In this document: in pieces, positions 53,301 through 64,000 of the stretch | Layout of the letters: each line of letters begins with the position of its first letter | Position numbering within the stretch: position 1 is the first letter of the stretch | Assembly: GCF_019801965.1 (NCBI RefSeq) | Contig: NZ_JAHVIA010000006.1 | Span: 310,001 to 374,000, forward strand | Source: Salipiger bermudensis | GTDB taxonomy: Bacteria; Pseudomonadota; Alphaproteobacteria; Rhodobacterales; Rhodobacteraceae | DNA length: 64,000 bases | Direction: 5' to 3' | Notes under the pieces: generated by a model | Database searches by the model: none | Told to the model about the DNA's origin: nothing | Seen by the model: the letters and a program-made list of their open reading frames with translations, nothing else | Program-made: the position numbers and the translations under genes

Positions 53301-56300
53301 ATCCGCCTGACCGACGTTCCGACCGGCGTGGTCTATGTCACCGTCTCGGCGACCCGCGCCTCGAGCGCCGACCGCAACCTCGCGGTCCCCGCCGTGGCCG
53401 AGGGCACCGCGCTCAGCTTCGCGCAGGGCGGCAGCACGCTCACCCGCGACAGCGGCAGCTTCCTGGACGACGGCTTCGATACCTACCAGTCGATCCGTCT
53501 CTCGGGCACCACGGACGGGGATGCCGATGGCGTCTACAAGATCGTCTCGGTCACCGCGACGGAGATCGTGGTCGAGGAGACCTTCGCCATCGCCGCCAAC
53601 GGCGACGCCGGCATCTCCCTCACCGGACAGGAGGCGGATTCCGTCCTGCTGAGCGACAACGGCAGCGATTTCGCCGAGAACATCGTGCTGGCCTTCGATG
53701 CCAGCAACTGGGACCAGGCCCAGACCGTCACCATCAAGGCGCTCGACGATGCCGCCGCCGAGGGCACCCGCAACGTGGTCATCAGCCACTCGGTGCAGTC
53801 GGTCGACCCGGCCTTCGATGCCGCGCAGGTGCAGAACCTCGTGGTCGAGGTCCGCGACAACGATCTCGCCGAGCTGCAGATCACCGAGACCGGCTCCGAG
53901 ACGCTGGTGCTCGAGGGGGCGCAGGGCATCACCGACAGCTACGCGCTGAAGCTCTCCCGCGCCCCGGCGGCGGGCGAGACGGTGACCATCACCCTCACCG
54001 ACAACTCGAACTCCGGTGACCTGAGCTTCAGCCAGACGGTGTTCACCTTCGACGCCTCGAACTGGAGCGTCGCGCAGAGCGTCACCGTCACGGCCACGGC
54101 CAATGACGGTGCCGAGAATGCCGAGCGCATCATCGTCACCCACACCGTCAGCAGCGACGGCCCGACCTATGCCTCGGCCAGCGCGCAGGATCTCACCCTC
54201 ACCGCCATCGACGGCGACACCGCCGGCGTGCTGATCCAGGAGACGCAGGGCGACACGGTGGTGATCGACAGCGCCGACGATGCCTATGACGAGACCGACA
54301 GCTACACCGTGCGCCTGACCAAGGCGCCCACGCAGGATGTCACTATCTCGATCTTCGACGACGGCCAGACCCGGATCGTGCCCGGCGGGCGGGTGTCGCT
54401 CGTCCCGCTGGCGGACGAGACGCTTACGGTCAGCTTCGTCGAGGTCGAGGACGGCGCAGATTACATCGAGCGCAGCGACGGGCAGAGCTGGGCCGACAGC
54501 GGCTTCGGCTCGGGCCAGACGCTCGACATCTCGGGCAGCGGCGACAATGACGGCGCGGTGCTGATCGGCGCGGTCTCGGCGGATGGCACGCGGCTCTACG
54601 TCTCGGGGGGCAAGAGCCTCACCGACGAAAGCGGTAGCGCCACCTTCACCGTCACCGCGGCGCAGATCACCTTCACCACCGACAACTGGCACGAAGAGGT
54701 CGAGGTCACGCTCGAGGCCGATCCCGACTACGTGCCCTCCGAGACCGATTACATCACCAAGGTGTTCCCGGCCGAGGAGCACACCGCCTCCAAGGTCTTC
54801 GGCCCGCTGATCATCGAGGGTGCGCCGACCGAGGACCGCACCCTGCTGGCGCCGGTGATGCTGCCGACCGAAAGCGATCCGGGCCCGATCGAGCTCGAGA
54901 TCGTCACCGACGAGACCGAGCAGAACGACCGCGTCAACATCTTCAACGACACCGACGTCACCGGCGCGGCGGGCTACATGACCACCACCACCCTGCCCGA
55001 CGGCAGCGAGCGGCTGCTGGTCAACGGGCTAGGCATGGGCACCGGCACCGTCGATTTCGACGAGAGCATCGCGCAGGACGGCTCGGAGATCGTCAGCTAC
55101 GCGCAGGGCATCAGCATGAACAACGTCGAGATCGTCGACGTGCTGCTGGGCGACGCGGATGACGATTTCACGGTGCTCGCCACCAACACCTTCTCCGACA
55201 ATACCGTCGACCTGCCGATCACCGCGATCCACGGCGGCGGTGGCTCCGACGAGATCACAGTGCTGGGCGGCGGCGGACCCGAGAGCCTGCTGGTGATCTA
55301 TGGCGACACCGACACCTACGGCGCGCGCTACGATTATCTTGGCGGCGCGCCCACCGGCGGCGGGCTGGTGTTCGACGGCTGGGAATACCCCGAAGACCAC
55401 GGCGACCTGATCGACGCCTCGGCCATCGGCACCGCCGGCCAGCTCGGACTGGTGATCTATGGCGGCATCGGCAACGACACCATCATCGGCTCGCTGGGCG
55501 ACGACCACATCGCCGGCGGCAGCGGCAATGACGACATCTCGGCGCTCTCCGGGGCCGATCACGTCTACGGCGACAACGGCTTCACCGTCGACCTGCTGCT
55601 GCGCGACCTCGTGGTCAGCGACGACATCGTCACCACCCCCGCGCTCGACAGCGCCGACACCCGCCTGCCGGGCAGCGACAGCATCGACGCGGGCGCTGGC
55701 GACGACATCGTGATCGCCGATCTTGGTGTGATCGAGCAGGTCGCCGGCACCCAGCGCATCGTCACCACCGGCGCGGTGATCCGCGTCACCACCACCCGCG
55801 ACGCCTTCGGCGGCAATGACGAGATCCTCTCGGGCCTCGGCAACGACATCGTCCTGGGCGGCGCGGGCAATGACAGCGTCACAGACACCGGCGGCGCCAA
55901 CATCGTGGTGGGTGACAACGGCACCGTCGACATGGTGGTGCTCGACGGCGACGAGACCGACATCGACCACATCTTCACCGAGACCCCGGCGGTGGCCGGC
56001 AACGACACCATCACCACCGCCGCGGGCACCGACGTGATCCTCGCCGGCACCGGCGATGACGAGATCGACGCGGGCGACGGCGAGAACATCGTCTTCGGCG
56101 ATCTCGGCGAGGTCGTTGCCGAGGCCGCGTTTGATGCGCCGCAGCTCGCGGGCTTCGCGATGACCATCGCGGCAATCCGCAGCCAGACCACACTTTCCGG
56201 CGGCGACGACACCATCCTCACCGGCGCCGGCGGCGACGTGGTGCTGGGCGGGCTCGGCGACGACGGCATCGACGCCGGACAGGGCGCCAACCTCATCTTC

Positions 56301-59300
56301 GGCGACAATGGCGAGCTGCTTACCGGCACCGGCGCGGCAAATCTCGGCGCGCTGCCGCTCGAGCTTCTGAGCGCCATCACCCTGACCGAGGCCAATGGCG
56401 GCGACGACACCGTGACCACCGGGCTCGGCGAGGACATCATCCTCGGCGGCGCCGGCGGCGACACCATCACCACCGACATGGCGGACGATGCAGGCGGTAT
56501 CGACGGGGCTGATATCGTGCTGGGCGACGTGGGGAGGGTGACCTGGGTCAACATCGGCGACGGCACCACCGATCTCGCGCAGGAAATCGAGACGACTGAC
56601 TGGCGCTACGGCGGCGACGACGTGATCTCGACCGGCGCCTCGAACGACCTGATCATCGGCGGCACCGGCGGCGACCGCATCCTCGCGGGCGTCGGCAACG
56701 ATCTGGTGATGGGCGATCACGCCCGCATCGCCGGCGATATCGACGAGACCGCCCTGCCCCTGACCCTCGGGGTCATGCCCTTCGACGTTTCGGCCACCTT
56801 CACCGGCGGCGACCGGCTCGGCGGCAACGACACCGTCTTCGCGGGCGCCGGGCAGGATCTCGTGATGGGCCAGCAGGGCGACGACTGGCTGTTCGGCGAG
56901 GCAGGCGATGACGACCTGATCGGCGGCCACAACGTCGACACCGACAACGAGGGCGCGCTGGCCCATGATGGCGACGATGCCATCGACGGCGGCGCGGATG
57001 ATGACGTCATCCTCGGCGACAACGGCCTGATCTACCGCACCGGCGACAGCGTCGACGCGCGGATGCGGGCGCTCGACGGCACGCTGCTCTACGGCATCGG
57101 TGGCGCCGATGACGCGCAGGCGATGATCACCGCGACCCACATGGCGAACCCCGACGGGACGCAGCAGCGCGCCATCGAGCTCTTCGATCATTCCGATGTC
57201 GAAGACCCGGCCGAATATGGCGACGACTACATCGCCGGCGGCGCAGAGAACGACGTGATCTTCGGCCAGCTCGGCAATGACGTGATCCAGGGCGACGGCT
57301 CCATCGATCTCGACAGCGACGGCAACGCCGATCCCGGCGCCGTGGGCGCCTCGCGCGATACCCTGCTCACCACCCTTCCCTCGGTCGACGATTTCGCAGG
57401 CCAAGGTCGCGATGGCGACGACTACATCGAGGGCAATGGCGGCGAGGACGTGGTCTTCGGCAACCTCGGTCAGGACGACATCATCGGCGGCAGCTCGAGC
57501 CTCTTCGCCGGGCTCGCCGGTGACGAGAGCTTGCGCCCGGACGGTGCCGACCTGCTCTTCGGCGGCTCCGGCACCGCGGCGTCGCGCAACGATCTCGGCG
57601 ACGATGGCATCGACGGCCATGCCCGCGATGCCGACGTGATCCTCGGTGACAACGGCAACATCTACCGCATCGTCGGCACCAACGGCAGCGACAGCGGCAC
57701 CTATCTCGGCTTCAACTACGATACCTATGGCGGCGAGCGGATCATCGTCCGCGCCGTCGAGCTGATCGACTACACCGAGGGCGGCCCGGATTACGATGCT
57801 GCGGCGCTTTCGGATAACGGCGGCGATGACGAGATCCACGGCGAGGCCGGAGATGACAGCATCTACGGCCAGATGGGCAGCGACGCCCTGTTCGGCGACG
57901 GTCAGAACGACGACCTGATCGGCGGCTGGGGCAGCGACTGGATCTCGGGCGGCACCGGCACCGACGGCGTCATCGGCGACGACGGCCGGATCATGACCAG
58001 CCGCAACTCCACCAGCTACGGCGAGGATCTCTACGGCGTCGCGGCGCTCGCCAGCACCGACGACCTGATCACCGGCCCCAACAGCTTCAACTTCCGCTAC
58101 ATCATCAACGTGGACCAGCAGCTGAAGAAGTCGGTCAACCTGACGCCCTTCAACCTCGATCCCGCGGCGACGCAGGACAAGGAGTTCACCCCCGCCTATG
58201 CCGATGACGTCATCTTCGGTGGCTGGGGCGACGATTTCCTGCATGGCGGCGCCGGTGACGATGCCATCTCGGGCGCCGAGGCCCTGCCGCTTTCGGAGAA
58301 CCCGCAGGCGATGGACGGCACCATCGTCTCCTGGGATACCCCGGTGAACCCGGGCGGGCTTCTGGCCTACGATCCCACGGTGGAGGAGTTCGCGCATTAC
58401 GACGAGAACAACCCGCGCGCCAAGATTACCCCGAACGGCGGCACCTTCTTCCTCAACCACGACGCCTCGGAAGGCCCGGTCGATGCGCGCAGCTCGAACG
58501 GCGTGACGACGGATGGCGATGACGTGATCTTCGGTGGTCTCGGCAATGACGCCATCACCGGCGGCACCGGGCGCGACCGGATGTATGGCGGCTATGGCGA
58601 CGATTGGCTCAATGCCGACGACGTGCTCGAAACCGCCGGCGGCAGCAACGACGACACCGATACCGACGAGAGCTACGAGGACTACGCCCTCGGGGGTGCC
58701 GGCCGCGATGTGCTGATCGCCAATACCGGCGGCGACCGGCTGCATGACTGGACCGGTGAGTACAACAGCTTCATCGTGCCGTTCCGTCCCTTCGGCGCGC
58801 CCACGGTCAACCGCCTGATGGCCCCCGCCGCGATCGAGTTCTGGTATCTGCTGGGCGAGAGCGACGGCGCCGATCCGACCCGCGCGCTCGACACCGGCAG
58901 CGATCCGGCCCGCTTCGGCGAGCCCGAGGGCGAGCTGGGCATCGTCACCCAGTCGGATCCCGACTGGAGCGACACCCACGGCGCCCCCGCCGACCCGCAG
59001 CCCGGCAACGGCCCGGCGCAGCGCGACGTGCGGGTGACCGCCGCCAGCGGCGACGGCAACGATGCCCGCTCGGAGACCGCGGATTACGGCGGCGGCAGCG
59101 CTCCCGCTGCGGCCAGCGCAACGGCACCGACCGCCCCGGTCTCGGCGGAGCGCGCCACCCTGCCGGAGATTCAGTCTGCCATCGCGAGTTCGGAGATCCA
59201 GATCACCTTCCACGCCTCGCAGGCCAGCAAGAATCTCGGCAAGGGCTCCTACACCTACGACGCGGAGCTTGGCGAGTTCGTCAAGGACGTCACCTTCAAG

Positions 59301-59486
59301 ACCACCGCCGACACCCCGGCAGACTCGGCCTATACCCTGCTCGACGAGGACGGAGCGTTGTTTGCTTACATCGATAGCAAGGGCGGTCTCTGGGTGATCG
59401 ATGATCTGCTGGATAATGAGGGCGGTCTTGCCGATGATGACGAGGACGACTGGATCTTCGTCACCGATTACCAAACCGCCTACTGA
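29310..59486 (+). CDS. Giant LEPR-XLL/RTX repeat protein, about 10,058 residues, predicted secreted adhesin or surface-layer protein
   Basis: One uninterrupted 30-kb frame. I take the ATG at 29310 (MSFPFAQ); a GTG at 29265 would add 15 residues. There is no Sec signal. A basic N-terminus (RIKSRLKRKDKRRF) is followed by LEQRVLLNGD at residues 49-58, a LEPR-XLL-type motif. Next come beta-helix/filamentous-adhesin-like repeats in several families (residues about 700-4,900), a long non-periodic part with a helical insert, and a 23-residue tandem repeat (7354-7584). Calx-beta-like domains (about 7970-8510), RTX nonapeptides (about 8718-9770) and an acidic C-terminus complete it. I noticed no cysteine. 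The mixture fits type I-like export and calcium-dependent folding outside the cell. A role in attachment or self-coating is inference. Confidence 0.93.
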   Translation: MSFPFAQQRPGQLPRIPYTRRIKSRLKRKDKRRFAALERAARQLMLDPLEQRVLLNGDVLALDLSAYYQDNRDTDLLVQLHEEIETDGDTATEVQRVQILDRSGGTVLSFGDLSEISGISIIGGAGSDVITLDGLSFGDQTPLAFSFDGGGGLDSLAFETANDVEWTIGQPDAGVATDGFVNLSFSNVETLAGAANNNDTFTLDVNGALAGGIDGGDGGFDTLVIDGQRESVTYLPEDPNSGSFLIDGTELRFSGLEPVYLTNTASTITIDMQTLLPGQQSASLDLDPGAFDFIIDGPGMESLSFDAPTDSLSIVSEFGLLNPDVSLSIDGWDSAATVGMDFTVQTESITLASGVSLGTALNPIGNVTLEASNSASGFGLTLLELSGIGSVSSSLDVQGNIHSAGTVALSAHAERVLDATGDFSDFNFSEGNPLQMPTVSATANVAGSSEITAAAFSLEASTLLDVEIDGSQSVLGSFANAVIADVTTHATVQSGAQVTVGSALLQGESVSGLVRASDDSSLILDVTPDEEGTEGADATGILNSMLDDFEVSIGIMTVSRDTQAIVDGTITSGGAFTIEAKNAGTFENKVQASLIGATYLYGTDTVLAKLTGDFDGTSLTVAALNESSYEVAAKISVNTIGGSTQALVEGGTVTLSGALDVSALDSTSLTSMSSDFDAYLDELTAIDLGEQSNADIKVAAAISEMDKTVEAAIDGASVTATGNVTVEAENAQTLVSHAEALSVRDTRNTPTKASLVASTKTVAFGGTLAFNEMRGETIAAIRNGADVSGDTIAVGATNAAILDTFSEAATKVTSGNNSAVGVSISFNLIGFDIDVLDAFALGIDTLIGINQYLGNEDPSNAHAYISASDVAATGALSVSARNESLIDATVTNSATSQASDSATANPLYDAKGMGFAMILANNKIASDAVAEIVDAPADGAITAGGTLEVTAEDSTTLASNAKVTSSSVTTNDGGLSGVDAALGTLLPATYSTNGAEVVDSSGAPVAGPTWSVSFGDRVGLDYDWLAFNDANGEAGTIYQYMGDGTDQIDLLDTDFEDTDFWMRVPETELIPTGNNLTDSDSVGVGGMAVRNTFDAQAVARISNADVESVGDMTVKAVEMATLTSTGDVGVSSSGGGSVQGDKGDSVAVGALIVVNTANASALAAVEQSADVLSTAGAVSVQADNIASLDAQLDAAVSSAGDSVGVLIAFNTLGYEAENILFQTVDALIGTDIGDKSFSDAEARIIDSTVAGQTGVSVTATNAAELTARIGTDVSSDPSAFQGAEAMAAQGVLASNMLAGAATARIDDTDSTPSGESVISAAGMVRVAASDEVVLESQTLVDTGASRTNDLGLGLLNNLAQELLDTYQYTTESGAPALVFGDRVFIGTNHANSDLHGKRFQYMGSGASVPLATTDFTDIDLWKELDETNVIPPALIGVAAKGAGIKTGSAKAYYVMVSRNEAEGGASAYIDDYDVTGASVSVEARERATMKAVDGSTINATETYGGLMVTNELNSRASARITESNVTATAGDVAVEALNLAVLDATTLSSMTGASDAINVVVAFNSVGFDGSNVLFQTIDAILGSDYLIEAEPVGAQAYIEDSVINASGDVSVTADTSAELTDIVFSDTTAQLLDDMADEKLLDDEDAEGDAAALADLQAEFEAASIAFEGSLSVETVETQFRWYVSDEVGRTWIIENREGTLVLLEANLLDARVGNETSAIAKNNRALFDAYVEGSKEDNKGKGIKDLKYGANGTAGGGLLATNRIASDTAAWIRNTTTTTHDAADTPATLSTGDTVSVGGAVYEYVGADQGADQSFLYSSRSDVQLLEAGDRIRLHEDYGIWSEGDILIYSGPTLASTETDPRDPGYDPIVLFDVLDAQPGDFTLGNAALSIDLSDAAQDYANNADWQLKDDTLPEGSVTAGGSITVSASDNAHIRADSNIEISAVVSNNMDAFTALANQALQNEYVYTSFSGSQTLIEGNVIYIGSNGGAEAGKYYQYSGPIQSYDLADIPGLGLDDEDNWTLLNGTVEPQDIFPNVGNLAESNSRAVGGIVVTNDVRSEARASVDAIDLTATSGDITVSSEADATMLARLTSNVTSSGGSAWGTGESLAVNATISTNMVRASANTLVRDSVLDAGGAIDILADNRAVLDATTQTETNTGDTGVGVTLAFNTLGWEASNLLFNAVDALVGDPLISEALDGEDPSMARALVIDSGLAAGTDITVEALSTEKLNATVSNSTVSEASAQTDATGKSVGVVLASNKVSGRAYAVIDNEDAPAQTEISAGGSVTVRASDEIGLWSNSKLVSSSTTTNDGGQAVAAETVNDLQQADWLALSGAGTQEVTVKFGELVRLDDGYSGGGVAGGVYEYLGTESIIDINDVNYEDKNLWKPTQVTQGIPSFGNVSKSDSIGVGTLVVLNDLRSDVLAEIRGATVGADDGEVIVEAIEDATMEANVDASTSSSGGSNLGDGQSIAFNGVIATNVLQGGADAAVIDSALSAADDGSGLGNVRVEATNTASLTANNIAMVGSGDTGVGVLLAFNSVGWEPSNVLFNTIDGIVGDPLISSAFNGEAPVDAEAYILNSSVSADGKLEVLATNDADIIAITSNEATSAAAALENASGTAVGAIVATNKVSGAAKAYIDVANLRQGDGEQRVETGDRVIALDGTVYEYSGPEAVIDLSAATFGATLWTNVGDDTGYANDIDAGTGVRVEANDSNHINVTNSLEVTTTVTNDAGLGIIFTSLENVVNEYQYTTRSGVQRGVTFGDMVYIADDYDETKAEREALYIYFGANQTGTDVDLSTLDYDADADWVKVDPLDIESLLPPGINLNFSESDATAGGGMVAMNDVRGGVIARVDEATVDTATGDIVIIATENAGIEAHNIGDIAADGGSAFGEGGTTLAVNALIATNVVLSTAEASLVDSDVDSVLGAVSVSATNTAQIDSDIDMTTVAEGGGESYGIGVTLAFNSIGVNSQNVLFNTIDALFGLLPADETPAMASASILRSEVSAETGVSVSALSDMDLTADILNAALATSIALEDNTSITVAPIVALNRGSSGAEALIIDAPMVETATGDVTVSARDTSFIHAENIAASASIAVGTGKSLSVAVATSIARNTLRNTVDAGIASSGVEATTGEIAIIASRDGVIESTAAAVAASVSGAADGNAVGVSVGGAVAVNRLFGGAEASIVDSTLVADSVSIQAESVSRIDATVAAVAASVSVSLSGDSTAVAIGASVSDNMIGWQDSAVAADHQSDDVTPLAEGDVVEVTEGAHRGRFYEYVGEDQATAVDLSIEDYGDPQKWKQVGLVREGALTSAHLDDSSITTGLGTDASLEIEALTQQSISSLVLAGAVAVAVGKSGLAVGGTGSFSRNRIASDAAAYISGDGGSTLELATGRVQAFDRSTIDSITGAASVAVGVGTSSNATSVAFGVAISMNEISNQAEAYVEDADVSVSGTGAVDPLDTVSLIVSAETSAGESFTVSSPGFDGDDLDDAAEEAMVNDDNGTPDDDEDDTVSRDASDLAGDTAILDDLRDALNGELGPQDQISATDTLRVSSAGFGKWLAVVEDSNGDGEGAGRSFLLAFDGGDLVVERTTINAIAAAAAVSVSVSSSNSIAVSGAGAYAENVVTSAALAHIDGATIATTGDVVVDAQGDSTINAAVIAASAAVAVSGSTGVGASIGVAIARNFLGQDRYGNEDALEVKAYLSDSSVNAGGDLLVTADAAQSINALTFAGSVAVSVGSTGVAVSGSGVWNENAINVDVLAAIDGDAGALAVDTQGDAITVSATNSSEINAFAGAASVAVAVGSTGVGVSIGLGLAQNDIGGTVIARIQDADDGVTARTGDLSVAADNAASISAFAGAASIAAGFGSTAVAVSGAGAEATNRIGSETRALISGSDVTSTLGGVSVSAGASGEIDAIVIAASAAVAVGQTGVGASIGVAVSRNLIGYEQGVVAYGNTTGDSVTQLTQDATTVLIEQGARKGDVYRYIGETVTQADNVIDEDGNTAPFALNAQDYGNTDLWELVNLSEAAAIVDAAIVSSDVTADDGVIVDALSTQAIKAASLAGSVAVAGGQVGVAVSGSGSAVENRINSDVSARIAGAASDVQADHVVVNADDISTIDAVSAAMAVSAAFGQTGVAVSLGISIAINNIANDVTATIADGAVSTSGAQGIIISASTPELPIDAPVADIVIPVSVSDLDDLAVADMDDEDTANAADLSGDASLAVSLADALRAQGFDLVGTVKVAALEEGERWTAVDEEGSSVALSLVNGQILASKAGINAVSGAAALSVAVGQVGVGIAGAGAVALNAIQTNVAASTVGADLTTTGSGDVVIDARSDVEINAAVLAVSAAVAAGQVGVGVGIGVSVARNFIGRDLTGDTVADSGAVSAYASDTTMDLTGDLTINAESAQSIRALTFAGAAAVAAGQVGVGVAGSGAYAENVIDATTEAYIDGDGTGISADAVSVAAEDSSTIDAFGGSVAVAAGFGMVGVAVSAGIGIGFNAIGSDVLAEIRNTDDGVETTVGDVTVEAKNTAAITAGTAAAALAVSGGLVGVSFAGAGAYAENEITGATTARITNATIDAQDDVLVSAESDATIDAIVLSAAAAIGVGAGGFGASIGVSLAENRIGNGDSTGVFAAIDGSSVTAGGDVDVLASMDDATIDATVVALSVAIAGGAVAGAAAGSGSDALNEIDYAVIAEIDDSAVVATGNTVTVDAQDNSVIDSFVGAASVAGSAGLVGGSVSIAVGLSENSVDNTIRAQVDNSDVTAADLVVNAEDDSDTYAAAAAAAVSASISLGFSVAGAGTEVRGRNSSTTEALVSGSGTDDVLTLSGDLTVTAEARPRVEAETVTASLSLGFAAFGAAGSYVDLDVTPEVTASVSGVLVNATDVEIGATSRTVADGLAVGVSLASGFAASANFVDVDVASDVTATGGGTMNVDTLSVEARTGEFNNTTNAQAEAHAAAGGLIGATSTLAETRIGDSVTAQIGANADITALIAVDVAAVADSSQYADANSAAFGLVGIGASIANAVADVSSHALVGNNADISAALVNISADGEAEVTADTRAGSGGAVAGAGAAPTATIDADVLAQINDGAEIEVATNNASILAYYGGQIDELPGGLNITAAFTSRPNALVKTDSYGLIAGSGAEANTDVTANVVVRFGTDDGDSTGATVTAESIFAAATNTVIKEGVSGNHLDGDAGGLASGALSSSQIDIVLNTRVIIDDHSQITTTDAYGSFTAEAFNALDIEDDVALFTAGALSGAGAYIDLHADTLLAEVVVGDDAVVEAAGQLIFEANGLHEIDLHSKSETYGIGTVALGHAKIDLAPDNLITIGGSVTAGRDIYLTAGTDMDRRIYDHSLKARVDNFAGSLIPIDDLETRAVVITDNTISVQSGALLEGFANINLFADENGVANLDVMAKGVNWASAVGDAIDAALGGNNANLGPGFGAAVARGSVVNDGTIRTGAQRHKDLTITFDSATNSFIGTSTTSAGVQTWTFDAGSITGPDSAGTFNLTTNGQESDIPFTVRLEQVETTRSAQLDIARENLALYNVTDNNGDLVNPDLVAFYQSQIERILEEMLAFGEANWLDNNNNGVIDIDQDELVPLQPTVQVIEVDAVFAQAGLVEIITDQLYGSGTFDTPRDASINITNQTAAYLVVNGAEIPEVNGGVYFNSVDVSLLSNPGTAITAENAEVVEEDGGYWSTIAPNFSFTAASTTPSGGVPEINIVIDYDALGAVLNDGDLNTNTAVWPDLFIEGPILNLRGDITLDNNSGYGSSTGSVIVNAEVNGLDVHILSNGTTILDTGATQDHLAGEPYSKWKTSDLTGDDYVNRTAGMLNAEAIDQTAIDAFLAVEPTEASITGDRIYIESQYLNINGIIQSGEEDFHVVLDDTTRAKIDEHRQSGSSTTILLPTTNPDFQIYFDPTANAGQGAVLVTPLRPGGGYVDITARVMNTRNGEIIVYGGYPDIEITNSMVFANGYTPEIIVQELDATTRGIGELIIKDLAKPSVGGVPYTTIYQVNDQGVVEISDNGGGFVGQGSDKEFTYDPVAGYRYGWMLAQGTREVLVEEWTEGDWLGIDAFAPDSRAPDRTDSTKTEGELVPDSNYFYLDTAKDGDAYTYDSVEVIGNVNGPNRTGYDHWSTWYGTNYSWFQYTTITDSVEYVTHTIEADRPVGITFIGHDAGSIVVNAGASDITVDGPLRNAYGHTQLNTTGIITTNSGGAISGEIGGRTIGLAASAIGTEYEAVRVNLSDVEGVTGQRIDATASDGIVNLYETFGDLTLGTISAADGGYDAILTSAGSILAAATGHGITADAIDLIAEDGDIGASARAIQIDTGTRDQSLLTATALQGAVYVVETDGDLRLFKIEAQGDVYVGVLSGDLLDGNQIEETDERAVSELRDGVWGALKLTDYETDENGDEVYTGNATAKVNEVKDTLANAKTSEYRQYWQTRLAQIEEYRLDLAEANPGWDDATLDAAAADFYLTFRPSALEYDADQLLLLTADEEAYYEEFYTAQAVSEGAADVPAYVANAILTLRTSRTEQYRNLDAVWGSYTGGLSNPLDPDVYDAAWEYELTDEENELIEGSIKIWTEDELINAIGAGLLVPVTDTDTVIEDANIIGANVELDVSGQIGATEGFETIAIDPDTELTPEERVLLSAAERDDLFFLTTDRFAATVDFDAAANTITRSSGTWDDVLVGQVIQVEGNSANATEEGPFYTVTAITNGGTTLQLDSSRVLLTASETNVAVHVSGLALDPRGVDLTDMTVDISGNTITLVSGDGDFSDYRAGMKLILAGDTENANDYLSLYEITAATATTITLNGPALITETGVTLDVNEYVELTMVQVQLREDLDIVVTGQLDVSAGGESYLGSEYAIELGTLEVDGNLRVRAQGELSNGGNSASTNITSDNLVLEAGDGGIGSGGMVYVDQTAGATLTARGTGDINITERDGDMNINTVYSAGEDVTLVAEGSILDHNNTEFVNIEADSITLTAQTGSIGVVGNALEVEARGDLGDDLGLLTLTAEGDVIVYEQEGDMNIRNVLSRSGDVELYAQLSIFDAVDLVDPTNPETSTDGNDTGSRLAADVLAAGNITLTADLGYIGAFGNELDIDSRRSGSDGVVTVTSRENTFLIEQAGDMWLNTVEVTQSDPLLATAYLTAVVGSIYNGVQPPNTSNVLGGRAYLIAQGDIGTSDNWIYTEIGALQSLSTTGSTYVDNQGALTLLTIDGGAGYGQQSGGDIYTVASSPITIANDILAAGDIIETATESAADNYDTFTINAGVEVRSTGGNIVFTAGDDLHVQTGASLIAETGSITLNADLAGWEGIGADLLIDGAVEALGTVALNTGAWNDAVTVSATGSVVAGTLAISTGFGTDAVSITGTTEATGNSTIDTGSGEDSVTITGAMSSALATLIDTGAGMDLLDVSGTVASGTTLTVNTGEGEDGLDVSGLLIAGSALTIDTGTGIDLLDISGTLSAGSGLTVSTDEGEDRLDISGLLIAGSVLTVNTGATRDFLDISGDFVSGGSIAIALGGGDDQMVLTGGFSAASTILVEGGAGADSVRFLDATTMTGHVTLLGGSEDDFVEIVRLVSQDRSTDSFLIDGGDGSDAILLQTHGSVGGELVDYIIDVVDTGGPLDADTMVVVGTEDDDVFLSRSNFFALLHGDIDQMRGDDPTRPQTVERINYDRAINGRVTLLGEAGNDSFIADDNAAIMTLDGGIGDDSFQFGQLFGNDPNSGSAENGIAPGDEINAVLTTRGWLSDGISFATVAFGGEGQDSFTVYANRAQLKLEGESGNDEFTVRAFLLDSDGSSSLQDQTELNAGSGDDLIRYNINAPLDIDGGAGFDKVVVLGTEADDAFVITEDGVFGAGLNVSLSNTEELLEVDGLEGDDSFFILSTSANSVTRVIGGLGSDTFDVTGDVTEEIVSADLAGRSGLINHQASSVDDDYDQTFIEGLGTTVADGNQGAIFISQEVAGDATQGETLVSETAGARTDIYSIRLTDVPTGVVYVTVSATRASSADRNLAVPAVAEGTALSFAQGGSTLTRDSGSFLDDGFDTYQSIRLSGTTDGDADGVYKIVSVTATEIVVEETFAIAANGDAGISLTGQEADSVLLSDNGSDFAENIVLAFDASNWDQAQTVTIKALDDAAAEGTRNVVISHSVQSVDPAFDAAQVQNLVVEVRDNDLAELQITETGSETLVLEGAQGITDSYALKLSRAPAAGETVTITLTDNSNSGDLSFSQTVFTFDASNWSVAQSVTVTATANDGAENAERIIVTHTVSSDGPTYASASAQDLTLTAIDGDTAGVLIQETQGDTVVIDSADDAYDETDSYTVRLTKAPTQDVTISIFDDGQTRIVPGGRVSLVPLADETLTVSFVEVEDGADYIERSDGQSWADSGFGSGQTLDISGSGDNDGAVLIGAVSADGTRLYVSGGKSLTDESGSATFTVTAAQITFTTDNWHEEVEVTLEADPDYVPSETDYITKVFPAEEHTASKVFGPLIIEGAPTEDRTLLAPVMLPTESDPGPIELEIVTDETEQNDRVNIFNDTDVTGAAGYMTTTTLPDGSERLLVNGLGMGTGTVDFDESIAQDGSEIVSYAQGISMNNVEIVDVLLGDADDDFTVLATNTFSDNTVDLPITAIHGGGGSDEITVLGGGGPESLLVIYGDTDTYGARYDYLGGAPTGGGLVFDGWEYPEDHGDLIDASAIGTAGQLGLVIYGGIGNDTIIGSLGDDHIAGGSGNDDISALSGADHVYGDNGFTVDLLLRDLVVSDDIVTTPALDSADTRLPGSDSIDAGAGDDIVIADLGVIEQVAGTQRIVTTGAVIRVTTTRDAFGGNDEILSGLGNDIVLGGAGNDSVTDTGGANIVVGDNGTVDMVVLDGDETDIDHIFTETPAVAGNDTITTAAGTDVILAGTGDDEIDAGDGENIVFGDLGEVVAEAAFDAPQLAGFAMTIAAIRSQTTLSGGDDTILTGAGGDVVLGGLGDDGIDAGQGANLIFGDNGELLTGTGAANLGALPLELLSAITLTEANGGDDTVTTGLGEDIILGGAGGDTITTDMADDAGGIDGADIVLGDVGRVTWVNIGDGTTDLAQEIETTDWRYGGDDVISTGASNDLIIGGTGGDRILAGVGNDLVMGDHARIAGDIDETALPLTLGVMPFDVSATFTGGDRLGGNDTVFAGAGQDLVMGQQGDDWLFGEAGDDDLIGGHNVDTDNEGALAHDGDDAIDGGADDDVILGDNGLIYRTGDSVDARMRALDGTLLYGIGGADDAQAMITATHMANPDGTQQRAIELFDHSDVEDPAEYGDDYIAGGAENDVIFGQLGNDVIQGDGSIDLDSDGNADPGAVGASRDTLLTTLPSVDDFAGQGRDGDDYIEGNGGEDVVFGNLGQDDIIGGSSSLFAGLAGDESLRPDGADLLFGGSGTAASRNDLGDDGIDGHARDADVILGDNGNIYRIVGTNGSDSGTYLGFNYDTYGGERIIVRAVELIDYTEGGPDYDAAALSDNGGDDEIHGEAGDDSIYGQMGSDALFGDGQNDDLIGGWGSDWISGGTGTDGVIGDDGRIMTSRNSTSYGEDLYGVAALASTDDLITGPNSFNFRYIINVDQQLKKSVNLTPFNLDPAATQDKEFTPAYADDVIFGGWGDDFLHGGAGDDAISGAEALPLSENPQAMDGTIVSWDTPVNPGGLLAYDPTVEEFAHYDENNPRAKITPNGGTFFLNHDASEGPVDARSSNGVTTDGDDVIFGGLGNDAITGGTGRDRMYGGYGDDWLNADDVLETAGGSNDDTDTDESYEDYALGGAGRDVLIANTGGDRLHDWTGEYNSFIVPFRPFGAPTVNRLMAPAAIEFWYLLGESDGADPTRALDTGSDPARFGEPEGELGIVTQSDPDWSDTHGAPADPQPGNGPAQRDVRVTAASGDGNDARSETADYGGGSAPAAASATAPTAPVSAERATLPEIQSAIASSEIQITFHASQASKNLGKGSYTYDAELGEFVKDVTFKTTADTPADSAYTLLDEDGALFAYIDSKGGLWVIDDLLDNEGGLADDDEDDWIFVTDYQTAY
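29454..29483 (+). other. LEPR-XLL-type N-terminal motif of the giant protein
   Basis: Codes for LEQRVLLNGD, residues 49-58. It closely resembles the LEPRVLLS(A/G)D motif that marks the N-terminus of many very large bacterial surface proteins. It directly follows a basic amphipathic helix and precedes the first beta-rich domain, so a targeting or processing signal is plausible. Confidence 0.8.
31400..38560 (+). repeat. About 1.1-1.8-kb super-repeat in the giant gene, six copies
   Basis: A block with the core pattern hydrophobic-AFN-(S/T)-(L/V/I)-G followed by N(V/I)LFxT(V/I)DA(L/I)(I/V)G recurs at about 31770, 32910, 33980, 35805, 36910 and 38195. The first copy is the most diverged. Spacing is mostly 1.07-1.29 kb, with one gap of 1.8 kb that holds an inserted module. 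Each unit also carries GD(V/I)xVxA-type beta-solenoid strands. Confidence 0.75.
32340..41397 (+). repeat. Nine scattered GDxV...YxYxG...W modules in the giant gene
   Basis: Short modules (about 42-55 residues, one longer) share GD(R/V/M)V, then G-x2-Y-x-Y-x-G, then an acidic D-x-D/DY segment ending in W. They lie at about 32340-32501, 33438-33580, 34680-35043, 35238-35388, 36345-36489, 37275-37400, 37599-37755, 39091-39237 and 41235-41397. The aromatic spacing recalls small carbohydrate-binding modules, but I cannot assign a family. Confidence 0.65.
34215..42160 (+). repeat. Three acidic inserted modules in the giant gene
   Basis: At about 34215-34470, 39700-40110 and 41815-42160 an acidic, helix-prone stretch (DD, EED and DLxG segments) leads into a short beta unit with a W near D/E-E-x-G or a similar group, then L-x-x-G-x-L. 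All three interrupt the surrounding beta repeats. The first contains QFRWYVSDEVGRTW, the second KWLAVVEDSNGDGEG and the third RWTAVDEEGSS. Confidence 0.6.
38600..43800 (+). repeat. About 65-residue Ala/Val/Gly-rich repeats in the giant gene
   Basis: A motif of the form A-x-VAVG-x-(T/V)GV-(G/A)-x-SG-(S/A)G-x-x-x-N-x-I recurs roughly every 190-210 bp from about 40320 to 43700, with looser copies from 38600. Between them lie D(V/L)xVxA strands. Two alternating forms are seen, one ending SIGV-A-x-(A/S)RN and one ending SGAGAYAEN. The style recalls leukotoxin/filamentous adhesin beta repeats. Confidence 0.75.
46086..46130 (+). other. Single EF-hand/dockerin-like calcium loop in the giant protein
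   Basis: DNNNNGVIDIDQDEL has the D-x-N-x-N-G-x-I-D-x-D spacing of a calcium-binding EF loop. It follows a helical stretch (SQIERILEEMLAFGEANW). It is far from the RTX block and may be an independent calcium switch. Confidence 0.6.
48465..49140 (+). other. Helix-rich insert of about 200 residues in the giant protein
   Basis: This part is rich in Glu, Ala, Leu, Arg and Tyr (for example YRQYWQTRLAQIEEYRLDL and LLLLTADEEAYYEEFYTAQ), with few glycines. It is quite unlike the beta repeats on both sides. I cannot assign a family. It may be a spacer, a protein-binding domain or a functional cargo. Confidence 0.6.
49345..54655 (+). repeat. Four copies of a G-x-W/F-x-D beta module in the giant gene
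   Basis: Modules at about 49345-49560, 49615-49830, 53395-53630 and 54405-54655 share the order I-x-R/L-x-x-G-x-(W/F)-x-D, then Q-x-I/L-x-(V/I)-x-G, then a short loop, then V-x-x-(I/V) and L-x-(L/V). The first two are in tandem. The last two sit inside Calx-beta-like domains. Confidence 0.55.
51369..52061 (+). repeat. 23-residue tandem repeat in the giant gene, ten units
   Basis: Units begin at 51369 (24 residues) and then every 69 bp from 51441 through 51993. The consensus is (L/V)-(D/S/T)-(V/I)-S/T-G, a short turn, then (A/S)G-x-x-LT-(V/I)-x-TG-x-G-x-D. Units 4-7 are the most alike, also at DNA level (repeated GACATCTCCGGC and GGCCTGCTCATCGCCGG). The period suits one coil of a right-handed beta helix. 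Confidence 0.85.
53215..54830 (+). other. Calx-beta-like domains of the giant protein
   Basis: Three successive units share V/L-x-E-x-x-x-x-T-D-(S/I)-Y-x-(I/L/V)-(R/K)-L-(T/S), then P-x-x-x-V-x-(V/I)-(T/S), then F-(D/T)-x-x-N-W-x-x-x-x-x-(V/T). This is the pattern of Calx-beta-type calcium-binding sandwich domains found in many secreted adhesins. They sit between the beta-helix part and the RTX block. Confidence 0.65.
55461..58620 (+). other. RTX (haemolysin-type) calcium-binding repeat block of the giant protein
   Basis: Dozens of GGxGxDxx(x) nonapeptides (for example GGIGNDTII, GGSGNDDIS, GGAGNDSVT, GGWGDDFLH, GGYGDDWLN) occur in short runs separated by linkers of 20-60 residues. They should fold into calcium-filled beta rolls outside the cell. 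A block of this kind near the C-terminus is the usual companion of a C-terminal type I secretion signal. Confidence 0.93.
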
Positions 59487-59514
59487 CAACGGCACGGATC
59501 CACACGGCACGCAT

Positions 59515-59537
59515 GGCGGCCCCCGCAAGGGGCCGCC
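59515..59537 (+). terminator. Hairpin after the giant gene
   Basis: GGCGGCCCC and GGGGCCGCC form a perfect 9-bp stem with loop CGCAA, 28 bp after the giant gene's stop and just before the ribosome site of the next gene. It may terminate most transcripts or set the ratio between cargo and export proteins. Confidence 0.55.
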
Positions 59538-59563
59538 TTACGCACCAAAGGAGGGAGGACCAT

Positions 59564-59881
59564 TTGGCCAAGGACGAGAACGGAACCACGCCCCCGGTGA
59601 GCGAAGGCGGCGAGAGCCGCAGCTCCACCGTGGTCTGGAACGACGAGGCGATGCAGACCAGCTTTGCCAACGTGGTGAACGTGCAGGGCACGCGCGAGCA
59701 GGTCGAGGTGTTCTTCGGCACCAACCGGAGCTGGAACCCCACCGATACCGGGCCGCTACGGGTCGATCTGACCAACCGGATGATCATGACCCCGTTTGCC
59801 GCAAAGCGCCTGCACCAGATCCTCACCGGCGTGCTGCGTGAATACGAGGCCCGCCACGGCATCCTGAAGGTCGAGGACTGA
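59564..59881 (+). CDS. Small DUF3467-like protein
   Basis: A 105-residue soluble protein. From about residue 20 it has the DUF3467 pattern as I know it: SFANVVNVQGTREQVEVFFG, a short loop, then NRMIMTPFAAKRLHQILTGVLREYEARHG. The start is a TTG at 59564 behind a very strong AGGAGGGAGG site; no ATG fits the frame before the conserved part. The stop overlaps the next start (TGATG). The biochemical role of DUF3467 is unknown to me. Here it is the first gene of the presumed export operon, so a chaperone or adaptor for the giant protein is a fair guess. Confidence 0.8.
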   Translation: MAKDENGTTPPVSEGGESRSSTVVWNDEAMQTSFANVVNVQGTREQVEVFFGTNRSWNPTDTGPLRVDLTNRMIMTPFAAKRLHQILTGVLREYEARHGILKVED

Positions 59882-61767
59882 TGGAGGACGGGCTGGGCAT
59901 TCCCGGCTCGGCGCAGCACCAGACCGAGGCGCGGATCGTCCGCGAGGCGGGCCCGTGGCGCCGGCTCAGCCGCGCCGAGGCGCTCGACGAGGCCGCCCGC
60001 GCCTGGGCGCCGCTGATGATGGCGCAGGTCGATGGCGCCGAGGGCACCGCGGTGTTCCTCGCCGATCCCGATGGTGGCCGGCCGCGCGCGGTGGCCAACT
60101 GGCCCGAGTCGCGGATGCCCTCGGCGATCCTGCTCGCCGCCGCCGAGGCCGCGCTCGACAGCGATCGCGGCGTGGTCCGCGGCGCGGTGGGCGACGATGG
60201 CCGCCCCTCTGGCGGGCTGGTCGCGCTGGCGACACCGCTCACCGTCGAGGGCCGCACGCAGGGCGCGGTCGGGCTCGAGATCCTGCCCGAGGATGCCGCC
60301 GAGCTGCGCGCCGCGATGCGCAGCCTGCAATGGGGCGCCGCCTGGATGCGCGATCTCGTGCGGCGCGAGGCGATGCAGTCCGACCGGCAGCGCTATGACC
60401 ACGCCATCGAGGCACTCAACGTGGTCATCGCCGTGGCCGAGCGCGAGGACATCGCCACCGCCACCCGCGCCGCCGCCACCGATCTCGCCACCCGCTTCAG
60501 CTGCGACCGGGTCTCGATCGGGTTTCGCGGGGTGTTTTCCACCAAGGTCGCCGCGATCTCGCACTCGGCCCAGTTCGGCAAGCAGATGGCGCTGGTCCGT
60601 CTGCTCGGCGCGGCGATGGACGAGGCCATCGACCAGCGCGGCCCGGTGCTCTGGCCCGCCGAGGACAGCGCCGATCCGGTCGCCGCGCATCGCCATGAAA
60701 AGCTCGCCCGCGCGCAGAATTCAGGCCATGTGCTTACCGTCCCGCTTTACGCGATGGGCCATTTCATCGGTGCCGTGACCTATGAACGCCCCGCCGAAAC
60801 GCCCTTCACCCAGACCGATCTCGAGATCCTCGAAGCGGTCAGCACGGTGATCGCGCCGGTGCTCGACGAGAAGCGCCGCAACGACCGCTGGCTGATCACC
60901 AAGGCGGGCGTCGCGCTCGGTCAGCAGTTCACCCGGCTCTTCGGCCCCGGCCATGTCGGGCGCAAGCTGGCGCTGCTGGTGCTGGTCGGGCTCGGGCTCT
61001 TCGGCTGGTTCGCCACCGGGCCCGACCGGATCTCGGCCGAGGCGCAGGTCTCGGGCCGGGTGCAGCGCACCGTGGCGGCGCCCTTCGACGGCTTCATCGC
61101 CGCGGCCTTCGCCCGCGCCGGCGATCCGGTCGAGGCGGGCGCGGTGCTGGTGCAACTCGATGACCGTGATCTCGCGCTCGAGCGCCTGCGCCTGGTGACC
61201 GAGCGCCAGCGTCAGCTGATCGAGTATGACCGCGCGCTCGCCGCCCGCGACCGCGCCGAAACGCAGGTGCGCCGGGCCGAGATCGCGCAGGCCGAGGCCG
61301 AGATCGCGCTGATCGACAAGCAGCTCGAACGCACCCGGCTCACCGCGCCCTTCGACGGGTTGGTGATCTCGGGCGATCTCAGCCAGAGCATCGGCGCCTC
61401 TGTGGCGCGCGGCGATGCTCTGCTATCGATCGCGCCGCCCGGAGATTACCGCCTGACCCTCGACGTCGACGAGCGTCGCATCGCCGATGTGCGCCCCGGC
61501 CAGGCCGGCGCGCTGGTTCCGACCGCGTTGCCGGAGCAGAGCTTCGGCTTCGAGATCACCAAGATCACCCCGGTCGCCGAATATGCCGACGGCGCCACCA
61601 CCTTCCGCGTCGAGGCCGCCTTCACCGGCGCGCATCCCGAATTGCAGCCCGGCATGGAGGGCATCGCCAAGATCGACACCGGCGAGACGCGGCTGGTCGA
61701 GATCTGGGCCCGCCCGCTGATCGACTGGGCGCGGCTGTGGGCGTGGAAGTGGCTGCGGATCGGGTAG
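59881..61767 (+). CDS. GAF-domain membrane-fusion protein (GAF-HlyD fusion)
   Basis: A 628-residue inner-membrane protein. The N-terminal cytosolic part has a GAF-like region (about 25-165) and a second, clearer GAF region (about 185-335, ending in FTQTDLEILEAVSTVIAPVLDEKRR). A single membrane span follows at about 362-382 (ALLVLVGLGLFGWF). The rest is a HlyD-type adaptor with the lipoyl half VAAPFDGFIAAAFARAGDPVEAGAVLVQLDD, a coiled-coil helix at about 434-487, the returning half APFDGLVISGDLSQSIGASV and a beta-barrel. Coupling a sensor-type domain to an export adaptor suggests regulated secretion. The gene overlaps its neighbour by 1 bp. Confidence 0.9.
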   Translation: MEDGLGIPGSAQHQTEARIVREAGPWRRLSRAEALDEAARAWAPLMMAQVDGAEGTAVFLADPDGGRPRAVANWPESRMPSAILLAAAEAALDSDRGVVRGAVGDDGRPSGGLVALATPLTVEGRTQGAVGLEILPEDAAELRAAMRSLQWGAAWMRDLVRREAMQSDRQRYDHAIEALNVVIAVAEREDIATATRAAATDLATRFSCDRVSIGFRGVFSTKVAAISHSAQFGKQMALVRLLGAAMDEAIDQRGPVLWPAEDSADPVAAHRHEKLARAQNSGHVLTVPLYAMGHFIGAVTYERPAETPFTQTDLEILEAVSTVIAPVLDEKRRNDRWLITKAGVALGQQFTRLFGPGHVGRKLALLVLVGLGLFGWFATGPDRISAEAQVSGRVQRTVAAPFDGFIAAAFARAGDPVEAGAVLVQLDDRDLALERLRLVTERQRQLIEYDRALAARDRAETQVRRAEIAQAEAEIALIDKQLERTRLTAPFDGLVISGDLSQSIGASVARGDALLSIAPPGDYRLTLDVDERRIADVRPGQAGALVPTALPEQSFGFEITKITPVAEYADGATTFRVEAAFTGAHPELQPGMEGIAKIDTGETRLVEIWARPLIDWARLWAWKWLRIG

Positions 61768-61773
61768 ACGGCG

Positions 61774-63915
61774 ATGGTGCAGAGCTTTCTTTCGCAGGAC
61801 TGGTATCGCGTCGCGCCGCTGCGGCCGCGGCTGCGCGGCCATGTCGAGATCCACCGCCAGCGCTTCCGCGGCCAGACATGGTTCGTGGTGCAGGACAGCC
61901 ATTCGGGCCGCTATCACCGGCTGAGTCCGGCGGCCAACCTGATGCTCTCGCTGATGGACGGGCGGCGCACGGTACAAACGCTCTGGGAGGCCGCCTGCGC
62001 CCGGTTCGAGGATGACCCCCCGAGCCAGTCCGAGGTGATCCGCCTGCTGGCGCAGCTGCACGGCGCCGACCTGATCACCGGCGACGTCCCCCCCGACATC
62101 GCCGAGATGGGACGCCGGCACCACGATCAGGCGCGCAAGTCGCTGATCGCGCGGCTGCGCAACCCGCTCGCCATGCGCCTGCCGCTTTTCGACCCCGATG
62201 CCCTGCTCGACCGCACCGTGGCGCTGGTGCGCCCGGTCTTCACGATCTGGGGTTTCATTGCGTGGCTGATGCTGGTGCTCGCCGGGGTGACGCTGGCCGC
62301 GCTGCACGCGGAGGAGCTGCTTGGCGGCGTCATCGACCGGGTGCTCTCGGCCGAGAACCTGCTGCTGGTGGCGCTGGCCTTTCCTCTGGTCAAGGCGATC
62401 CACGAGCTTGGCCACGCCTATGCCACCAAGGCCTGGGGCGGCGAGGTGCACGAGATCGGGGTGATGTTCCTAGTGTTCATCCCGGTGCCCTATGTCGATG
62501 CCTCGGCCTCCGCCGCCTTCCCCGAGAAATGGCGCCGCGCCGTGGTGGGCGGGGCCGGCATCATGGTCGAGCTGGCCCTTGCCGCGATCGCGATGATCGT
62601 CTGGATCAATGTCGAGCCGGGGCTGGTGCGCGCCTTCGCCTTCAACGTCATGCTGATCGGCGGGGTCTCGACGCTGTTTTTCAACGGCAACCCGCTGCTG
62701 CGCTTCGACGGCTATTTCGTGCTGATCGACGTCATCGAGATCCCCAATCTCGGGCAGCGGTCGAACAAGTATTTCTGGTTTCTTGTACAGCGCTACCTGC
62801 TTGGCCTGCGCAACACGCAATCCCCGGTCACGGCCAGGGGCGAGCGCGGCTGGTTCCTGTTCTACTCGATCGCCGCCTTCCTCTACCGGGTCGGCATTTC
62901 GATCACCATCGCGCTGCTGGTGGCCTCGAAATTCTTCTTCATCGGGGTGCTTCTGGCGATCTGGTCGCTCTCCAACGTCTTCCTCTTCCCGCTCTGGAAG
63001 GGGCTCAGCTTCCTGTTCACCGCGGGCTCGCTGCGGGGCCGCCGACTGCGCGCCATCGCGATCTCTGGCGGGCTCGCCGCTGCCGTGGTCGCGGCGATCT
63101 TTGCCCTGCCGGTGCCGCACCGCACGCTCGCCTCCGGCGTGGTCTGGCTCGAGGACGACCAGATCCTGCGCGCCGCCACCGATGGCTTCGTCGCCGAGAC
63201 CCCGGTGGAGCAGGCCAGTGTCCGCGCCGGTGCCGAGCTGCTGCGCTTGGAGGACCCGATCCTCGATGCCGAGCGCGCGCTGGCCGCCGCGCGGCTCGCC
63301 GAGATGCGGCTCAAGCTCGCCGCCGTTGCCGCCTCGGACCAGGTGCAGGCCAAGCTCCTGCGCGAGCAGGTGGCGCATCTCGAGGGCCGGCTGAAGCTAT
63401 ACGACGAGCGCGCCGCGGCCCTCACCGTCACCGCCCCGCGCGCCGGCATGGCGCTGATCCCGCAGGCCGGCGACCTGACCGGGCAGCTGATGCACAAGGG
63501 CGCGGTGCTGGGCTACCTTCTGCCGGACGGCACCACGCGCTACCGGGTGGCGGTGCCGCAGCAGACCGCCGAACTGGTGCGCGCCACCGATCATGTCAGC
63601 CTGCGGCTCGAACGCCAGCCCGGCGTCGAGATCGAGGCGAGGATCGTCGGCCTCTCGCCCGAGGGGATCAACCGCCTTCCGTCGCCGGCGCTCTCCACCG
63701 AAGCGGGCGGGCCCTTCGCGCTCGATCCGGAGGATCCCGACGGCAACCGTACCGTCCAGAGCCTGTTCCTCTTCGATGTCGCCACCACCGCGCCCGGCGC
63801 CCTGCCCTTCGTTGGGGAGCGCGCCACCGTGCGCTTCGATCATGGCGACGCACCGGTCGGCTTCCGTCTGGGCCGGGCGCTGCGCCAGCTGTTCCTGAAG
63901 CGCTTCAATGTCTGA
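61774..63915 (+). CDS. PqqD-like / M50 metalloprotease / HlyD fusion membrane protein
   Basis: A 713-residue multi-domain membrane protein. Residues about 15-105 look like a PqqD-type winged-helix domain (YHRLSPAANLMLSLMDGRRTVQTLW). A site-2-protease-type M50 core has HELGH at 210-214 and NGNPLLRFDGYF near 305-316, with several membrane spans between about 158 and 450. From about 453 a HlyD-type adaptor follows (QILRAATDGFVAETPVEQASVRAGAELLRLED, then a coiled coil and beta part). PqqD-type domains bind leader peptides and M50 enzymes cut within the membrane, so recognition, cleavage and export of the giant protein may be joined here. It lies 6 bp after the GAF-HlyD gene. Confidence 0.9.
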   Translation: MVQSFLSQDWYRVAPLRPRLRGHVEIHRQRFRGQTWFVVQDSHSGRYHRLSPAANLMLSLMDGRRTVQTLWEAACARFEDDPPSQSEVIRLLAQLHGADLITGDVPPDIAEMGRRHHDQARKSLIARLRNPLAMRLPLFDPDALLDRTVALVRPVFTIWGFIAWLMLVLAGVTLAALHAEELLGGVIDRVLSAENLLLVALAFPLVKAIHELGHAYATKAWGGEVHEIGVMFLVFIPVPYVDASASAAFPEKWRRAVVGGAGIMVELALAAIAMIVWINVEPGLVRAFAFNVMLIGGVSTLFFNGNPLLRFDGYFVLIDVIEIPNLGQRSNKYFWFLVQRYLLGLRNTQSPVTARGERGWFLFYSIAAFLYRVGISITIALLVASKFFFIGVLLAIWSLSNVFLFPLWKGLSFLFTAGSLRGRRLRAIAISGGLAAAVVAAIFALPVPHRTLASGVVWLEDDQILRAATDGFVAETPVEQASVRAGAELLRLEDPILDAERALAAARLAEMRLKLAAVAASDQVQAKLLREQVAHLEGRLKLYDERAAALTVTAPRAGMALIPQAGDLTGQLMHKGAVLGYLLPDGTTRYRVAVPQQTAELVRATDHVSLRLERQPGVEIEARIVGLSPEGINRLPSPALSTEAGGPFALDPEDPDGNRTVQSLFLFDVATTAPGALPFVGERATVRFDHGDAPVGFRLGRALRQLFLKRFNV

Positions 63916-64000
63916 TCTCGCCGCCTCCCGCCCCGGTCCGCGCCTGACCCTGCCGCGCATCGCGGGCTATTCCGAGCGCCCCGAGAGCGAGGAGGGGCAG
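63908..64000 (+). CDS. Start of a further gene in the export operon, truncated by window edge
   Basis: An ATG at 63908 overlaps the stop of the M50 fusion gene by 8 bp, in another frame, and stays open for 31 codons to the end of the window. The visible part is rich in Arg, Pro and Glu and has no recognisable domain. The overlap argues for a real, translationally coupled gene. No ribosome site is obvious, as expected for coupling. Confidence 0.6.
   Translation, partial: MSDLAASRPGPRLTLPRIAGYSERPESEEGQ

Follow-up and report, generated by a model that had tools for sequence, protein, structure and literature searches.

Type 1 secretion, as in HlyB-HlyD-TolC and LapBCE-type adhesin export, relies on C-terminal secretion signals, and RTX repeats are the usual mark of its substrates. 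In the accessory Sec system of Gram-positive bacteria (SecA2-SecY2-Asp), a second SecA serves surface proteins of very large size whose N-terminal signal is unusual. Contact between SecA and the SecY channel is made by the two-helix finger in the C-terminal domain. The other described systems closest to the locus presented here are the tripartite pumps, including MacAB-TolC, and the PqqD/M50 proteases of RiPP pathways. Those passages of a tripartite-pump review that were available name ABC, RND and MFS pumps, contain no GAF domain and deal with SecDF where SecA occurs (PMC8277102). Neither SecA nor HlyD appears in the available text of a paper on huge proteins (PMC11573180), and the accessible passage that mentions a Vibrio LEPR-XLL protein some 8,000 aa long names no export system (PMC10868602).

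Locus organisation and domain content

The window, meaning the whole 64,000-nucleotide stretch of DNA analysed, is contig 6, 310001-374000, of a 4.83-Mb genome (features in Table 1). The preliminary description had placed four close-packed genes behind a 30-kb gene, and this arrangement is confirmed by ORF coordinates and Pfam matches. The DUF3467 gene begins 77 nt 3' of the end of the giant ORF (59486), at a TTG codon (59564) preceded by AGGAGGGAGGA. It is overlapped by the GAF-HlyD gene by 1 nt, the PqqD-M50-HlyD gene follows 6 nt downstream, and the SecA-like ORF overlaps the latter by 8 nt and extends past the window edge to contig base 375923. A scan of 58500-64000 revealed no terminator-like sites at the gene junctions and no promoter-like sites; the one terminator-like site in this interval, where 1.5 were expected from shuffles, lies within the M50 gene.

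Table 1. Features of the giant gene and of the genes behind it, in window coordinates unless stated otherwise.
Feature	Position	Strand	Details
Giant LEPR-XLL gene, presumed substrate	29310..59486	+	10,058 aa from ATG 29310; 10,073 aa from GTG 29265
N-terminal signal region: MSFPF, basic stretch, LDPLEQRVLLNGD	29310..29492	+	LEPR match 29439-29492
DUF3467 protein, 105 aa	59564..59881	+	TTG 59564 start; PF11950
GAF - transmembrane - HlyD-type adaptor, 628 aa	59881..61767	+	Pfam GAF, HlyD_3
PqqD - M50 metalloprotease - HlyD adaptor, 713 aa	61774..63915	+	HELGH 62401-62415; second motif NGNPLLRFDGYF
SecA-like motor gene, first 31 codons in window	63908..64000	+	full gene L005:5908-7923, contig 6 373908-375923, 671 aa

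The HELGH, HlyD, PqqD and GAF regions proposed earlier were all recovered by domain searches, with the M50 match borderline to its Pfam cutoff. DUF3467 matched PF11950 at 55 bits against a cutoff of 25, and a role as a chaperone would be a guess. In the GAF-HlyD protein, Pfam detected GAF (2.2e-9) and HlyD_3 (4.6e-16). Three GAF-HlyD counterparts, all from loci without a SecA relative, were scanned with Pfam and had no GAF domain, and a conserved GAF sensor was dropped from the mechanism on this ground. The PqqD-M50-HlyD protein matched PqqD (4.8e-9), HlyD_3 (5.8e-8) and M50 (2.3e-5); the M50 domain scored 24.3 bits, below the Pfam cutoff of 27.2, and in the genome search 26.4 bits, or 28.5 bits with frame neighbours, which is above the cutoff. 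HELGH corresponds to residues 210-214, and the M50 catalytic residues (HExxH and the distal Asp) were intact in 80/80 main-form and 11/11 other proteins. The HlyD part of the modelled M50 protein aligns with MacA of MacAB-TolC, with aligned rows spanning residues 445-700. Among the matches listed, its closest named relative is from Salipiger bermudensis HTCC2601 (92% identical).

The operon extends past the window edge: overlapping genes at L005:7920-12897 (window 65920-70897) encode an unknown protein of 248 aa and a 297-aa protein, together with a radical SAM protein, SapC and a flavoprotein of the tryptophan-halogenase family. The model of the 297-aa protein has an aromatic-prenyltransferase fold, common to cyanobactin enzymes such as PagF. 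Neither this protein nor the DUF3467 protein has a PDB sequence relative at E 1. The giant may be chemically tailored by these downstream enzymes.

The SecA-like motor

The product of the fourth gene matched SecA_DEAD (9.1e-99) and the SecA preprotein cross-linking domain (1.9e-26) in Pfam, and is 46% identical to the full-length SecA of the same genome over residues 65-559. At 671 aa it is without about the last 225 residues of SecA; the absent parts are presumably the wing domain, the two-helix finger and the linker. All 70 aligned full-length relatives kept the motor motifs, and none had residues aligned past position 680 of the genome's SecA (905 aa). Judged by its sequence, the fourth gene encodes a truncated SecA-type ATPase that has retained its motor. 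The 21 SecA relatives tested formed one group against 13 housekeeping and three Bacillota SecA proteins, with a support of 100/100. Scores of 411-549 bits to four SecA2 models were below every cutoff, and the cutoffs of the housekeeping SecA models were likewise not reached; together with the missing C-terminal part, the SecA2 scores rule out a plain SecA2. The window genome possesses one SecY, and one full SecA beside the truncated one. On plasmids, annotations of the SecA-like gene vary between 'prepilin peptidase', 'DEAD/DEAH box helicase' and SecA.

The giant protein and its N-terminal region

Translation of the giant probably starts at ATG 29310 (MSFPF) rather than at GTG 29265, the start of the longest frame. 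The LEPR-XLL model NF012209 matches residues 59-76 at 20.0 bits (cutoff 17); in the genome search the match scored 23.9 bits and was the sole LEPR match in the window genome. Pfam searches with two pieces of the giant returned only RTX calcium-binding repeats, located in the C-terminal half, and relatives of the giant carry Ig, cadherin and laminin-G domains.

A membrane-length hydrophobic stretch was absent from 27/27 LEPR N-termini (27 of 31, without L109, L112, L114 and L119), the best 17-residue Kyte-Doolittle mean being 1.62. An [AS]xPF motif was present 20-130 residues ahead of LEPR (LEPRxLLSAD) in 21/32 N-termini, where shuffles expect 1.8; these were 32 of 38 N-termini, without L109, L112, L114, L119, L143 and L121, and some of their sources are closely related. 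The window giant conforms to this pattern with MSFPF at 29310. LEPR frames in the family genomes range from 657 to 17,824 aa, and in genome G730 (contig 115, 112865-112924) a LEPR match lies within a 19,427-aa open frame.

Conservation of the gene set

Related loci were collected by scanning a genome collection with the M50 protein. The best 80 of at least 582 confirmed matches were kept, so that the sample leans to close relatives, and the neighbour profiles were built from the same loci in which presence was counted. Among these best 80 of 582, the GAF-HlyD counterpart was present in 71/71 loci that reach 2 kb upstream, the SecA relative in 67/68 loci that reach 2.5 kb downstream, and DUF3467 in 38/70 loci with 2.6 kb upstream. 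SapC (24/37) and the radical SAM gene (14/37) were counted in loci of the same sample that extend 9 kb to either side. A giant-like or LEPR ORF occurred in 32/38 loci with 8 kb on both sides; one of the six without a nearby giant, L023, has its giant slightly further out, on the same contig stretch as L125. A free HlyD-type adaptor, the third of its kind, was found in 53/81 loci, directly behind the SecA gene in 50/81, and is absent in the window's own group, with L008-L010 and the window locus lacking it. A TolC-type gene, searched with five query sequences, was adjacent in 1/81 main-form loci; TolC lies beside the set on Methylosinus plasmid pMSC49a and at L075, and the TolC-type genes of the window genome are on other contigs, none adjoining the set.

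Contigs with the labels Alpha-, Beta-, Gamma- and Deltaproteobacteria, Desulfobulbaceae, Nitrospirae and Nitrospinaceae show the same gene order. On pMSC49a it runs giant (8,847 aa), DUF3467, GAF-HlyD, PqqD-M50, SecA relative, adaptor, TolC. Distances among three proteins of the set correlate across 61 loci (Mantel r 0.86-0.92, permutation maxima 0.18 or less), as is expected of linked genes, and shared descent alone also raises r. A chance neighbourhood is ruled out by the widely recurring gene order, the conserved presence and the correlated distances. The set is plasmid-borne at L137-L140 (Rhodobacteraceae M382, Methylosinus pMSC49a, Pseudosulfitobacter pDSM107133_a and Pontibrevibacter), with the giant alongside in three, and this location fits a patchy spread.

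Co-occurrence with LEPR giants

For comparisons across genomes, a strong M50 protein was defined by at least 400 bits and a LEPR match by at least 21.9 bits, both limits being set after viewing the lists. Among 394 family genomes (393 genera), strong M50 proteins were present in 35, LEPR in 34 and both in 32 (Fisher 3e-41, a value that overstates independence, as the genomes are not independent). Among 299 phylum genomes the corresponding counts were 35, 39 and 30. The M50 protein and LEPR thus occur together in 32/394 and 30/299 genomes, which supports the preliminary description in its proposal of co-occurrence and of a machine dedicated to LEPR-XLL giants. Strong M50 proteins without LEPR at 21.9 bits numbered 3/35 (family) and 5/35 (phylum); LEPR without a strong M50 protein numbered 2/34 and 9/39, of which 1 and 8 hold a weak form. 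A LEPR frame of at least 1,000 aa occurs in 57 of the phylum genomes, 54 of which also have some M50 relative, and 30 phylum genomes have an M50 relative and no such frame. The LEPR gene was on the same contig for 35/43 strong M50 places, and within 57 kb for 34. In 289 class genomes, a strong M50 protein was found only in the window's own genome, and LEPR in that genome and one other (G050), where it lies in a 530-aa frame with no strong or listed M50 relative. The M50 protein and LEPR are both lacking in the one other genome from the window's genus.

A second form of the set contains weaker M50 relatives, which score about 110-360 bits and include fragments. A SecA relative was present in 0/16 weak-form genomes, 14 of which have a LEPR match; this hand-chosen sample comprised 13 of 49 weak-only phylum genomes plus G673, G448 and G523. 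In 15 strong-form genomes, also hand-chosen (14 of 35 phylum genomes plus G358), it was present in 13, one copy being interrupted by TAG, and missing in 2. At 11 loci (ten weak-form loci and L131) the SecA relative was absent within the 10-16 kb fetched, and genome-wide too for all but L124. Five of these 11 loci have a TolC-type gene within the set, each confirmed by Pfam. At locus L121, a variant of the set, genes for an adaptor, HlyD, M50, a TolC-type lipoprotein and a LEPRILLDAAA protein follow one another, and the SecA gene is lacking. Locus L131 encodes a strong-form M50 protein of 674 bits and a LEPR protein bearing DUF4347 and Ig domains, and the only SecA match in its genome is the housekeeping SecA. 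Since chosen weak-form genomes have LEPR and no SecA relative, some versions can evidently do without the motor. Both forms seem to share the adaptor-protease core, and the SecA relative would then be an addition or an alternative engine.

Proposed mechanism and alternative explanations

The reading favoured here, with a probability of roughly 0.6, is a dedicated trans-envelope exporter for giant proteins that is powered by the truncated SecA. The basic N-terminal region of the giant (M[AS]xPF ... LEPRxLLSAD), which has no classical hydrophobic signal peptide, would be recognised, probably by the PqqD domain. The truncated SecA-type ATPase, whose motor is evident from its sequence, would thread the chain. 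The GAF-HlyD and PqqD-M50-HlyD proteins may assemble into a periplasmic tube of mixed composition that sits on an outer-membrane channel of the TolC type, with the third, free HlyD-type adaptor joining in most relatives and not in the window's group; the domains of the tube components are supported by sequence and one structure model. The intact M50 site would cut the signal of the giant once engaged, or act on another membrane partner. A cut of the N-terminus within the membrane, as the preliminary description proposed, would have catalytic residues intact in 91/91 proteins behind it, but 27/27 LEPR N-termini are without a hydrophobic stretch of membrane length. The giant would arrive at the cell surface or in the medium, as its own RTX repeats and the Ig, cadherin and laminin-G domains of its relatives suggest. 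The export machine proposed in the preliminary description thus fits in its HlyD parts, in the third adaptor and in TolC at some loci. However, the SecA-like motor was missed because its gene lay outside the window, and it changes the energy source and the mechanism of the machine.

The route through the inner membrane is the point on which two versions of export differ. The missing SecY-contacting part of SecA favours a port other than SecYEG, whereas the forms without a SecA gene favour ordinary Sec. Tentatively, the set might represent a new, one-step class of secretion, in which the motor drives leader-tagged giants through an M50 port and an HlyD/TolC tube independently of SecYEG; in some genomes a cassette of linked radical SAM, prenyltransferase-fold and halogenase-family genes would act on the giant first. 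Somewhat less probable is a two-step route, in which the SecA-like protein is an accessory SecA bringing the giant to the single SecYEG, and the HlyD proteins then pass it to TolC. The retained DEAD motor and preprotein-binding domains would suit such a role, as would a genome with one SecY and one full SecA beside the truncated one, and forms without a SecA relative could rely on the housekeeping SecA. Against this stand the absence of the SecY-contacting two-helix finger from 70/70 aligned SecA relatives and of a membrane-length hydrophobic stretch from 27/27 LEPR N-termini.

Export of the giant by an ABC system encoded elsewhere, through its C-terminal RTX region, with the neighbouring genes only processing or regulating it, appears improbable. 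The RTX repeats in the C-terminal half and the TolC-type genes elsewhere in the genome agree with it, but the gene set is near one-to-one with LEPR giants and contains HlyD-type adaptors of its own, and 81 loci yielded no type 1 ABC gene. The last result rules out an ABC-driven type 1 system at the locus itself. Frames of at least 200 aa with ABC signatures occurred at 4/81 loci, only one exceeding 450 aa, and the sole frame of at least 450 aa with Walker A and ABC signature at these 81 loci encodes an oligopeptide-type ATPase (L049). The least credible alternative is that the set makes a small modified, RiPP-like peptide through PqqD and M50, and that the giant is merely linked. It would account for the daptide protease model NF041824 being the top NCBIfam hit of the M50 protein (163.6 bits, below the cutoff of 300), and for the radical SAM and aromatic-prenyltransferase-fold proteins of the same operon. 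However, the association of M50 relatives with long LEPR frames (54/57 phylum genomes) is hard to reconcile with it, and radical SAM genes occur in only 14/37 loci with 9 kb on both sides among the best 80 of 582.

If true, the favoured reading of a SecA-powered exporter would explain the export, by Gram-negative bacteria, of proteins several thousand to 19,000 residues long that lack an ordinary N-terminal signal peptide. It also gives a testable signal and gene set for predicting secreted giants in genomes. SecA would join the ABC, RND and MFS pumps, which the available part of the tripartite-pump review names (PMC8277102), in energising tubes across the envelope.

Comparison with known systems

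No description of this system was found among the matches listed in the full-text literature, a source with subscription papers and preprints largely outside it, and one may exist. Within this incomplete coverage, the earlier statement that no described system has this composition holds, and a SecA-driven HlyD/PqqD-M50 set for giants is a combination not found in the literature searched. Type 1 secretion resembles the set in its HlyD-type adaptors, in an RTX-bearing giant substrate and, at some loci, in TolC beside the genes. However, the set has a SecA-type motor and, at 81 loci, no type 1 ABC exporter gene, its two HlyD-family adaptors in the window are fused to PqqD-M50 and GAF, and the conserved region of its giants is N-terminal. 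The accessory Sec system is similar in that a second SecA is present in the window genome, but it is excluded as the identity of this system by the single SecY of that genome. Moreover, the SecA described here is without the C-terminal part, so that the helical scaffold, wing and two-helix finger of an accessory-Sec SecA have no aligned counterpart in 70/70 proteins, whereas a Lactobacillus plasmid SecA of 793 aa is encoded with its own SecY, SecE and SecG.

MacAB-TolC and other tripartite pumps differ in that the substrate here is presumed to be a protein of ~10,000 residues, and no MacB, RND or MFS transporter was noticed among the families recurring at the loci. The PqqD/M50 RiPP proteases (daptide NF041824, LiaK/YydH NF058609) have the same layout of PqqD and M50. 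However, the M50 protein of this set scores below both model cutoffs (33.1 bits against 225 for LiaK/YydH), and it carries a fused HlyD adaptor and co-occurs with giant LEPR genes.
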